64,000 nt of DNA. Origin: Aspergillus flavus (lineage: Eukaryota > Ascomycota > Eurotiomycetes > Eurotiales > Aspergillaceae). The notes under the pieces were generated by a model, which was not told the origin of the DNA, made no database searches, and saw nothing but the letters and a program-made list of their open reading frames with translations. Location of the stretch: positions 3,472,001-3,536,000 of the forward strand of contig NC_092407.1 of assembly GCF_009017415.1 (NCBI RefSeq). The letters run 5' to 3'. Numbering within the stretch: the stretch's first letter is position 1; the number at the start of each line of letters is the position of its first letter. Positions 23,464 through 37,051 of this stretch are shown one piece after another. The position numbers were made by a program, and so were the translations under genes.

Positions 23464-24953
23464 TTAAAACAAAGTCGTCGACTCGTTCCACGGTTCTCGG
23501 TCCGAAAGTAAATCGCGCTGGCCATAGTACTCTCCGACAACCGTAATGATCATATCCAGCATGGCCCGGGTTTGCATGGCGACTTCGACGGCATTATACT
23601 GAGTCTTGGACTCGTCCTTTTGAGCCTCGGGTTCGGACGATTTAGATCCACCGCCTTGCTCAATCTTAGCCTGTAACCGTGCTTTAGCCATTTCTAGCTC
23701 TTCGGCAGGAGGCTCTTGTTCCGCGTCCGGAGATTCTCCAGCAGGATCACTGGTTGCCTCCGCATTCTCCGTCGTTTTCTCCTCCACATGAGGCTGGTCA
23801 TCAACTGGATTCTCATCCTCCGACTCTCCACTCGACGCATTCCCATCCACCCCAGCCGAGCGCTTCTTCTCATTCTCCTCCCGCATTTTCCGCAAGATCT
23901 TCGCAGCGCGTTTTCCCAAGTCCCGAATCTCACCCACCTCCTCAGACGCCAACTGCCCGACATCGCGACACTTGCCCAGTAGACCCCAAGCCCAAGCACC
24001 GATCCGTCGAACACGCTCCGCATCTCCACTCCGTATATTCTCCGACATCAGCTTCGCCATAACTTCCAGCACCCCCAGCACACTATCCATGTCCATGCAC
24101 GCTAACTGCACCGTCTGCGGGTCCACCGCCAACAGGAGACGTCGCCACTCCTTGCGCGCATCTCTCGAGCGTCGCGGCAGACTTATCGGATGCGACTCGT
24201 CCAGTGCCGCTATAGCGGTCGACGGTGGCGTGCATTTTAATATAGACCGGAGGAGCAAGAAGCGGTGGTGTAGAAGATTGTAATAGCCCGATTGCGCATC
24301 CGATTGTGTTGGTTCGGTGGTATCTGGTTGTGTCTTCGAGGTAGTTAGGGGAGCCGCGACGTATACCCCATCCGCGTAGAAACCTTCCTGGGCGATATCT
24401 GTTTTCTTCTTCTCTTCTTCGGGCTGAGGTTCGTTTAGGTCCTGTTCGGTTTCACTTTGTTTGGTCTCCTCGACGGGCGGATCTGTAGGTTGAGGCGCGG
24501 TAAACAGAAAGGGTAGTGAATTCGCCTCTGACCTATTATTCCACAGTAAGGCCAGTATTAGCTCCAGAATCTCGATATAATAGAATCGCATTCATCGCGG
24601 GCTGCAATAAGCAAGATACACGCAGGCGTTTAGCAAGCGGAAAAGTAACAAAAGCAACCGTTATAAACAAGCAAAAAAGTAGTGATGCGAGCTTACCGGA
24701 CCATGCGAAGATATTCCAAGCCGTCCTCTGCTGGACCGTAGAATAGTTCATCGTCGCCGGCTGTGTCGAGACCGGGAAAAGCGCTCTTCTGTCCGTAGAT
24801 CGGGTGGTTCCGAGGACGTTCGTACGGAGTTACGGTTGGTGCCATCTCGTCTTCATCGTCGTCTTCTGCGTAAGAAGGACGGGATCGCTTTGCGTAGGGG
24901 GTCCCGCCAGTATGAGAACTGGGTTGTTTGCGCTTATCGCGTATGCTGGACAT
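23464..24953 (-). CDS. Gemin2/SIP1-like (Brr1-type) spliceosomal snRNP assembly protein
   Basis: Exons 24953-24697 and 24532-23464 (intron 24533-24696, 164 bp, unusually long for this window) give 441 aa. ATG 24953 is the first ATG of the exon; the frame opens further upstream without one. After a basic, Asp/Glu-rich N-terminus comes GPAEDGLEYLRMVRSEA, resembling the Gemin2 segment that contacts SMN. Later, VQLACMDMDSVLGVLEVM and GAWAWGLLGKCRDVGQL with EEVGEIRDLGKRA follow the pattern of the Gemin2 helical domain. An acidic, low-complexity insert (about residues 270-340) is probably disordered. Gemin2 proteins hold Sm proteins during snRNP assembly. Assignment is from motif resemblance, not alignment, hence moderate confidence. 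Confidence 0.7.
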
Positions 24954-35375: not shown

Positions 35376-36136
35376 GAGCTACTATAATGGTACTGCAACA
35401 AAAGATGACATGATCCCCCGTCGGTCATGAGTAACAGTTCTTAATGTGCACTATCTCTGTGCATTATCTTCCAAGCTTCTCAATCAACCTACATCTGGCA
35501 TGTACTGTTATTGTATTGTTAATAGTTACTAAGCAGCCAAATGGTCCTGGAGACCTATTGCTTGTACAAAACATCCACTCCAGAGAACTGTTTCCATTGT
35601 TCATGCATTTAGATGGGCATTCCGAGATCCAGGAAAAACGTCGACAGATGTACAGAGTCCTCGACATATATGTGCTGGATGGCATCAATTATGATCTCAT
35701 ACACAAGAACAAAGGCCTTAACTGGACAGTTTTCCTTTTGTCTCGGAATACAAATTTAAGCACTACATATCGGTCTCTACATAGTATCCTAGGTCTCCTC
35801 AGCCCTTAGCATTCTAGTTCGGAGTTGAAAGGAATAACGTACCCAGCAGGCCACTATATGAAACGTCAATTTTTCGGCCATTGGCATCTCAAGAACACAC
35901 CAAAATGATTGGAGATCAACGAGACACTGGTTATAGATGTAGGAATGTATATACACTAGGTCAAAGGTGGTATCATTTGCGTTATCAATAGTCATCCGCA
36001 TTTCAAAAATGTGGCTCGATCTGCATTCCAATTGAAGATGGCACTAGGCTGGGGAAACGCGCCAGCGAGATATGCAGTATTTCAGGAGAGAAAAGGTGGA
36101 AGTGGAGGCAAAAATAAGGAAAGAAAAGAAAAAGAT
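35376..36136. other. Intergenic between the phosducin-like gene and tRNA-Ser copy A
   Basis: About 760 bp without a supported gene; it ends in an A-run that is the T5 terminator of tRNA copy A on the minus strand. Confidence 0.45.
36129..36133 (-). terminator. Pol III T5 terminator of tRNA-Ser copy A
   Basis: Five consecutive Ts on the minus strand begin 4 nt after the discriminator base. Typical RNA polymerase III stop. Confidence 0.7.
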
Positions 36137-36180
36137 CGACAAGGACGCGATTTGAACGCGCGACCCCGAAGGGATAAGAT

Positions 36181-36197
36181 AACATCCAATGATTGGA
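36181..36197 (-). other. Canonical-position tRNA intron (37/38), copy A
   Basis: 17 nt. ATCCAA and TTGGAT around the insert pair perfectly around TCA; the TCA could alternatively pair with the UGA anticodon. Position fits removal by tRNA splicing endonuclease. Confidence 0.65.
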
Positions 36198-36201
36198 TTC
36201 A

Positions 36202-36256
36202 CTAGAAGAGGAATTAGTATTTGGATAGGTTATGTAGCGGAAACATGTCAACATAC
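36202..36256 (-). other. Spliceosomal-type 55-nt insert inside tRNA-Ser copy A
   Basis: Begins GTATGT, has TACTAAT 11 nt before the end and ends TTCTAG, that is, a textbook filamentous-fungal GU-AG intron of normal size. It interrupts the anticodon loop between positions 33 and 34. Confidence 0.7.
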
Positions 36257-36289
36257 AGTCTTACGTCTTAACCACTCGACCACCTTGCC

Positions 36290-36619
36290 TCGGATGAAGG
36301 ATTTTGCGACTTTGAGGAAAAATGAAGGGCACTGATATAGGACCAAGATGTTGTATTATAATACAACACTGGAGGTTCTGTGTTCTGCACAACGGATTGT
36401 TGTTGACACCCGTAGAGAACTTGCATATCAGATAGAAAACAAGAATATCATCTTGATTCAATGCAAAGGCCCACCACCTATCAATTCGTAATACAAGATA
36501 TAAGTGACAATGGACTCGGAGAGCCAATACCGTATGGATATGACAAAAGATTGCACGTATTTACCGCCGGGCGAGCGGTAGCCGTCTCCGTGACAAAGGA
36601 CAAAAAAGACCAAAAAAAA
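36290..36619. other. Spacer between the two tRNA-Ser genes
   Basis: 330 bp with no resemblance between the two flanks. The A8 run at its right end is the T8 terminator of copy B. Confidence 0.45.
36612..36619 (-). terminator. Pol III T8 terminator of tRNA-Ser copy B
   Basis: Eight Ts on the minus strand directly follow the discriminator G. Confidence 0.75.
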
Positions 36620-36663
36620 CGACAAGGACGCGATTTGAACGCGCGACCCCGAAGGGATAAGAT

Positions 36664-36678
36664 ATCATCCAAGAGGGA
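36664..36678 (-). other. Canonical-position tRNA intron (37/38), copy B
   Basis: 15 nt. It shares TCC...TTGGATG with copy A and can form an ATCC/GGAT stem. Confidence 0.65.
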
Positions 36679-36682
36679 TTCA

Positions 36683-36737
36683 CTGGGTGATTATTAGTAT
36701 AATTGTGTGGATCAGGTGCCGAATAAAGGCTACATAC
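36683..36737 (-). other. Spliceosomal-type 55-nt insert inside tRNA-Ser copy B
   Basis: GTATGT at the 5' end, TACTAAT 10 nt before the end, CCCAG at the 3' end. Same length as copy A, interior sequence unrelated. Confidence 0.7.
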
Positions 36738-36770
36738 AGTCTTACGTCTTAACCACTCGACCACCTTGCC

Positions 36771-37051
36771 TTTGGTGCGGTTATGATTATCAAGCTTTGC
36801 TTCAAGTAAAGGTAAGATCATTACGTCTCAATACACACGTTTGGTAAGTATGTCCTCCAAGGCTCCAATGTATATGTGGAGTACAAAAGAGGTTCCTATC
36901 TTTTCTTTTCTTTTTCTTCGAGTTTTCTTCGAAGAACTGAGCCTAGAGGTCTGGCTGAGAGTCAATCCATAGGGTTAAGTAACTATGGAGGTGTCTTGTG
37001 CTTGAATTTCTGTACGCAAAATAGCCCTCTTAGCATAAGAAATCACTCTCT
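36771..37051. other. Spacer between tRNA-Ser copy B and the GIY-YIG pseudogene
   Basis: About 280 bp with a CT-rich stretch (36896-36930). No gene supported. Confidence 0.45.

Follow-up and report, generated by a model that had tools for sequence, protein, structure and literature searches.

Introns of nuclear tRNAs and introns of mRNAs are taught as distinct systems, each with its own enzymes, and the locus described here raises the question of whether both can be joined in one tRNA gene. The window, by which we mean the whole stretch of 64,000 nucleotides of Aspergillus flavus DNA that was analysed, contains two minus-strand genes, A and B. A sequence-only reading had described them as tRNA-Ser(UGA) genes with two inserts each: one of 55 nt in the anticodon loop, with the appearance of a spliceosomal intron, and a separate one of 15-17 nt at position 37/38.

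Two interrupted tRNA-Ser(UGA) genes

Our analysis confirmed this description. The exons of the two genes are identical at 81 of 81 positions, the inserts lie at 33/34 and 37/38 (tRNA position numbers were set by hand), and the 37/38 insert measures 15 nt in gene A and 17 nt in gene B. The features are as follows.

36620-36770, minus strand: tRNA-Ser(UGA) gene A, G73 included (Rfam tRNA span and letters)
36738..36770, minus strand: gene A exon 1, positions 1-33 (letters and Rfam span)
36683..36737, minus strand: gene A 55-nt GT-AG insert at 33/34, GTATGT...CAG (letters)
36693..36699, minus strand: gene A branch-site-like TACTAAT, followed by 10 nt ending in CAG; branch A 11 nt before the 3' end
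36679..36682, minus strand: gene A exon 2, TGAA, positions 34-37 (anticodon UGA and A37)
36664..36678, minus strand: gene A 15-nt Sen-type intron at 37/38, G at -3
36620..36663, minus strand: gene A exon 3, positions 38-73, with long variable arm, B box and G73
36612..36619, minus strand: gene A T8 run resembling a Pol III terminator, directly 3' of the gene
36137-36289, minus strand: tRNA-Ser(UGA) gene B, G73 included (Rfam tRNA span and letters)
36257..36289, minus strand: gene B exon 1, positions 1-33, identical to exon 1 of gene A
36202..36256, minus strand: gene B 55-nt GT-AG insert at 33/34, GTATGT...TAG
36213..36219, minus strand: gene B branch-site-like TACTAAT, followed by 11 nt ending in TAG; branch A 12 nt before the 3' end
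36198..36201, minus strand: gene B exon 2, TGAA, positions 34-37
36181..36197, minus strand: gene B 17-nt Sen-type intron at 37/38, G at -3
36137..36180, minus strand: gene B exon 3, positions 38-73, identical to exon 3 of gene A, with G73
36129..36133, minus strand: gene B T5 run resembling a Pol III terminator, three bases 3' of the gene

When both inserts are removed, the two genes give the same 81-nt RNA, with a 7-bp acceptor stem, a D arm, a 5-bp anticodon stem with the loop CTTGAAA, a long variable arm, a T arm and G73. An A box, a B box and a T-run terminator are all present in both genes. The inserts of 15-17 nt have the position (37/38) and the possible C32-G(-3) pair of a Sen-type intron, and they look like ordinary introns of this type because 37/38 introns, each with G at -3, are also present in the Ser(CGA) genes at L053 (16 nt), L064 (14 nt) and L065 (7 nt), the first two according to ARAGORN and that of L065 from the letters. 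Near the intact Ser(CGA) gene of L064, on the plus strand from about position 422, lies a damaged and inverted near-copy with G-to-A differences, which we take to recall repeat-induced point mutation. In the window itself, an open reading frame with a SIP1/Gemin2 domain (snRNP assembly) is found about 12 kb from the interrupted tRNA genes (23464-24591, minus strand), probably by coincidence.

When introns are permitted, ARAGORN identifies the joined exons as tRNA-Ser(tga), the raw genes A and B as Asp(gtc) and Asn(gtt), and the Ser sequence with the 37/38 insert alone removed as Tyr(gta). The earlier claim that removal of both inserts yields tRNA-Ser(UGA) stands to the extent that the joined exons are read in this way; the GT-AG excision is not singled out by a cloverleaf score, as discussed below. 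The Rfam tRNA model matches genes A and B at 41.1 and 40.9 bits when positions 35900-37000 only are searched with permissive filters, and ARAGORN and Rfam runs over the whole window reported nothing. No cloverleaf emerged from minimum-energy folding of the Ser sequences, whether raw, half-spliced or mature; tRNAs often fold poorly in such programs. A group I or group II intron was considered and rejected, as positions 35900-37000 gave only tRNA matches at E up to 1 and 55 nt is far below ribozyme size.

The sequence-only reading had proposed a search for any uninterrupted tRNA-Ser(UGA) in this genome. We searched 37,736,778 bases in 8 contigs with a pattern and a BLAST-type search, and none was recognised, the weak pattern matches having been read in part. 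The pattern, a serine D arm with YTTGAR and up to two mismatches, matched 44 places genome-wide (control, 18), none of them with zero mismatches. The 14 places with one mismatch comprise seven Ser(AGA) genes, three Ser(CGA) genes, one Leu(UAA) gene, the degenerate L063, L071 (no tRNA according to ARAGORN) and one unread place. Among the 30 places with two mismatches, no Ser(UGA) was found in the five that were read (L064, L066, L067, L068 and L070), the other 25 being available as 25 letters only; one of the latter, C2:4153222, retains CTTGAA together with a D arm of the serine kind, and a divergent Ser(UGA) gene without inserts may be present in the genome, for example at this place. The BLAST-type search with the joined Ser sequence returned four pieces, all from genes A and B, at a limited sensitivity that left the Ser(AGA) and Ser(CGA) genes unreturned. 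L063 (C6:3484193) was set aside as a further Ser(UGA) gene on account of its damaged T arm and its loop CTTGGA; this degenerate serine-like tRNA with a long AT-rich insert (C6:3484000-3484350, minus strand) is probably a pseudogene. Both recognised copies of the Ser(UGA) isoacceptor are interrupted.

Interrupted tRNA-Trp(CCA) and tRNA-Leu(CAA) genes

A genome-wide pattern composed of the 5' signal, the branch and the B box matched 22 places (control, 9), and three tRNA genes were present among the 20 that were read: A, B and one tRNA-Trp(CCA). With a longer distance, the same signal pattern matched 19 places (control, 10), one of which (L100) is tRNA-Leu(CAA). The additional genes and their inserts are as follows.

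C1:5760584-5760710 (L074:1474-1600): interrupted tRNA-Trp(CCA), 55 nt at 28/29 in the anticodon stem, GTAAGT...TTCTAAC...CACAG
L100:618-782, 1476-1644 and 1721-1887 (C1:5832660-5833929): three tandem tRNA-Leu(CAA) genes
Leu1 insert: 54 nt at 23/24, GTAAAT...CTAAC...TAG
Leu2 insert: 59 nt at 25/26, GTAAGT...CTAAC...TAG
Leu3 insert: 56 nt at 25/26, GTAAGT...TTAAC...CAG

Four uninterrupted tRNA-Trp genes, identical over 72 nt and with unrelated flanks, occur elsewhere in the genome. Once the sequence from GT to AG is taken out, the interrupted gene aligns with them without gaps, with 68 of 72 bases matching; the four mismatches make up two compensatory acceptor-stem pairs, 4-69 and 6-67. The uninterrupted paralogues fix the ends of this insert exactly at GT and AG, without ambiguity. 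Because four uninterrupted copies exist, the interrupted copy may be dispensable.

Each Leu(CAA) gene has a second intron of 29-30 nt at 37/38, in which GCTTG can pair with CAAGC, and isolated Leu arms fold through this pairing without a full anticodon stem. The G at -3 of the 37/38 insert is absent in Leu1 and present in the other four Ser and Leu genes. Although the three inserts have diverged and that of Leu1 is shifted in register by 2 nt, their removal leaves the same 81-nt tRNA in every case; the two registers may represent a single gain that slid by 2 nt. A genome search with the joined Leu sequence returned only these three copies, all three of which are interrupted. A pattern of the D arm and YTCAAG had no exact match genome-wide; three of its six one-mismatch places (control, 1) were read, and they are two known Leu(UAA) genes and a Leu(UAA)-like stretch. 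This stretch (L068; C4:3731450-3731750, plus strand) has a Leu(UAA)-like 5' half, an acceptor-like end and no normal T arm, and ARAGORN reports no tRNA in it.

The genome-wide total is six tRNA genes with GT-AG inserts (two Ser, one Trp and three Leu), and the five Ser and Leu genes also carry the 37/38 insert. A scan of all DNA that had been read for tRNA genes counted 38 distinct genes by its criteria, six with long inserts and no further one (L098, L105, L111 and L114-L116 included). Two further pattern searches brought no additional GT-AG-interrupted tRNA to light, among the readable places of the 18 matched by one (control, 6; five available as 80 letters, two unread) and among the eight read of the 14 matched by the other (control, 3). 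Exon patterns had zero matches in viral_contigs and zero in genome_contigs. The genome may hold further tRNAs of this kind, or a Leu(CAA) gene that is uninterrupted but divergent.

Insert signals, processing and alternative readings

All six inserts are 54-59 nt long, begin with GTATGT (two), GTAAGT (three) or GTAAAT (one), end in CAG or TAG, and contain a branch-like CTAAT, CTAAC or TTAAC whose A is 11-14 nt away from the 3' end. None of them lies at the Sen-type position 37/38: they are found at 33/34 (Ser), 28/29 (Trp), and 23/24 and 25/26 (Leu). Under the assumption of independence, the chance of beginning with GTAWGT, ending in YAG and having YTAAY with the A 11-14 nt from the end is about 2e-7 per random insert of the composition of the Ser inserts. 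The Trp and Leu2 genes were found through signal searches, and their signals are partly selected. The signals of Leu1 (GTAAAT) and Leu3 (TTAAC) were not selected for, because neither insert fits the patterns that led to L100, yet both hold the signals in register. The Ser inserts have TACTAAT instead of TACTAAC, and GTAAAT in Leu1 and TTAAC in Leu3 are weaker signals.

Apart from these signals, the inserts have diverged. Aligned without gaps, the two 55-nt Ser inserts share 27 of 55 positions, with GTATGT, TACTAAT and YAG kept, and without the signals they are no closer to each other than shuffles (78 of 500 shuffles were as good). The same is true of the Leu insert pairs (173, 365 and 70 of 500). 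Between families, the Ser A and Trp inserts are slightly closer than shuffles (20 of 500), whereas Ser B and Leu2 are not (232 of 500). Meanwhile, the exons are identical over all 81 positions not only in both Ser copies but also in all three Leu copies.

The inserts had been said to match the introns of protein genes in the same window, and the likeness is one of length, general signals and branch distance, the exact motifs of the Ser inserts being rare (GTATGT) or absent (TACTAAT) there. A GT-AG stretch that would join two open frames exists for 94 frame pairs of the window and for 32 of the reversed window; a candidate with full signals is present in 10 of the former and in none of the latter. 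With no preference for length, the full-signal candidates of the 10 pairs number 12, and among the eight pairs with a single candidate, seven introns are 50-60 nt long and one is 102 nt. The branch A lies 9-23 nt from the end in introns picked with a limit of 7-25 nt. In the ten chosen introns, which were picked by their signals and show that such introns occur rather than how frequent each signal is, GTATGT is the start of one and GTAAGT of two, and the exact TACTAAT occurs in none. The inserts contain no TTTT; as a signature of Pol III transcription this was judged weak, since eight of the ten window introns are also without TTTT.

To what extent does tRNA structure specify the excision? All excisions of 40-75 nt with a start at positions 13-60 were made, with the 37/38 intron optional and the splice signals unused, and scored by the D stem, the anticodon stem, the loop positions and the GG of the D loop. 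For Trp, the GT-AG excision is the unique optimum. For Leu2 and Leu3, four excisions tie for best in each, one of them GT-AG, and for Leu1, 62 tie, two of them GT-AG. In the Ser genes, whose insert sits within the loop, the ties number 49 and 47 with one GT-AG excision each, and 17 and 14 of them, respectively, give the anticodon GTA. The assignment of UGA to the Ser genes therefore draws on the splice-site reading, on the finding that no other Ser(UGA) was recognised and on the parallel cases, rather than on structure by itself.

Taken as a whole, these observations are best read as U2-type spliceosomal introns, 54-59 nt long, inside nuclear Pol III tRNA genes. It had been suggested that pre-tRNA-Ser(UGA) may be processed by the spliceosome as well as by the tRNA endonuclease, and the Trp gene and the three Leu(CAA) genes with like inserts elsewhere support this as the best-fitting reading. 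In the course of events that we regard as very probable, Pol III would transcribe the whole interrupted gene; in the nucleus, U1 and U2 would recognise GTATGT and TACTAAT, and the spliceosome would cut out the GT-AG intron, presumably via a lariat. This removal would re-form the anticodon loop in Ser, the anticodon stem in Trp, and the D stem and its junction with the anticodon stem in Leu. The tRNA endonuclease and ligase would then take out the 37/38 intron in Ser and Leu, and the end products would be tRNA-Ser(UGA), tRNA-Leu(CAA) and tRNA-Trp(CCA). The spliceosome would be expected to act first, because Sen acting on unspliced Ser would leave the loop CUGUAUA, with anticodon GUA, and because GT-AG removal restores the body from which the endonuclease measures. 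The yeast tRNA endonuclease works outside the nucleus, which would enforce the same order. A point that counts against the spliceosome is that Pol III transcripts are without the cap that normally helps splicing.

Could the endonuclease do the whole task? It would have to cut after position 37 as counted on the unspliced RNA and again before position 38, and so discard UGAA and the 37/38 insert along with most of the 55-mer; the product would be a serine-type body with the loop CUGUAUA. The cloverleaf score permits this, given the GTA excisions among the best-scoring ones, as does the Tyr(gta) that ARAGORN reads with just the 37/38 insert out, and the G at -3 could still pair with C32. However, this would not explain why UGAA is intact or why the branch and 3' splice signals have been kept, it would deliver serine to tyrosine codons, and it does not extend to Trp or Leu, whose inserts break stems beside the measuring site of Sen; we consider it highly improbable. 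Removal by another protein system also appears very improbable; an example would be a tRNA endonuclease of relaxed, archaeal-like specificity acting at non-canonical sites, of the kind proposed for a red alga. Non-canonical and multiple tRNA introns are indeed described for nucleomorphs and Cyanidioschyzon in the available text of PMC4090602, but the determinant that it gives for Cyanidioschyzon is a bulge-helix-bulge, whereas the elements kept between copies here are GT, branch and AG.

The interrupted genes are also very unlikely to be pseudogenes or silent relics into which intron-like DNA has been captured. Four intact Trp copies are present, and eukaryotic tRNA genes with short insertions in the D or T arm are supposed to be pseudogenes according to the part of PMC4090602 at hand. 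Nevertheless, the Ser and Leu exons have stayed identical despite diverged inserts, the A and B boxes and T-runs are intact, the acceptor-stem changes of the Trp gene are compensatory, and no other Ser(UGA) was recognised.

Consequences and comparison with known systems

We consider it likely, judging from the gene sequences, that the spliceosome is a required tRNA-maturation machine in this lineage. All of the Ser(UGA) genes (two) and Leu(CAA) genes (three) that were found would pass through the spliceosome and then the endonuclease, the supply of the tRNAs decoding UCA and UUG would depend on splicing capacity, and introns would have been gained at at least three separate tRNA sites (Ser, Trp and Leu). 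If this is true, both splicing pathways are joined in one precursor, as most such genes hold the tRNA-type intron too; Pol III tRNA genes can acquire spliceosomal introns and keep them; and the decoding of particular codons is tied to splicing capacity. Standard annotation may hide such tRNAs in other genomes, because before splicing ARAGORN gave the proper identity for none of the six interrupted genes and Rfam had no tRNA match at the Leu locus L100 or the Trp locus L074. The non-canonical intron step of tRNAscan-SE 2.0 is described for archaeal tRNAs in the available text of PMC8450103.

The sequence-only reading knew of no precedent in nuclear tRNAs, and we likewise found no report of a spliceosomal intron in a tRNA in the open-licence literature, as covered by titles and abstract openings, with subscription journals and bioRxiv mostly outside this scope; the introns of U6 and U3 are nearest. 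A 1985 study reportedly described Podospora tRNA-Ser(UGA) genes with unexpected structural differences, which may bear on the Ser inserts. The U6 snRNA introns of fungi, first found in fission yeast, are likewise GT-AG introns in a small structured RNA gene, and U6 is a Pol III RNA. U6 differs in being itself a part of the spliceosome, whereas the host here is a tRNA, the inserts break the cloverleaf, and five of the six genes carry a second, endonuclease-type intron. Splicing of the U6 precursor is impaired in pre-mRNA splicing mutants, according to a title cited in PMC5832005. The U3 snoRNA introns of fungi, as presented in the available text of PMC5832005, are normal spliceosomal introns with experimental evidence in S. 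cerevisiae and N. crassa; they are similar in interrupting a structured non-coding RNA and different in the class of RNA. U3 and U6 are named in that text as the only small structured RNAs so far known to be often interrupted, and no tRNA is named there.

According to the portions of reviews available to us (PMC4090602, PMC4390854), eukaryotic tRNA introns are of the endonuclease type and mostly at 37/38, and non-canonical or multiple introns occur in nucleomorphs and a red alga. The nucleomorph and Cyanidioschyzon tRNAs resemble the present genes in having more than one intron per gene, some of them outside 37/38 (PMC4090602, as far as available, a text that mentions the spliceosome zero times). 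The non-canonical introns of Guillardia measure 3-24 nt, with a removal mode given there as unknown, compared with 54-59 nt here, and the tRNA introns of Cyanidioschyzon are described in the same source as endonuclease-type. Canonical Sen introns at 37/38 are like the Ser inserts of 15-17 nt and the Leu inserts of 29-30 nt, including the possible CAAGC/GCTTG pairing in Leu, and they differ from the inserts of 54-59 nt, which are located at 23/24, 25/26, 28/29 and 33/34 and carry splice signals.
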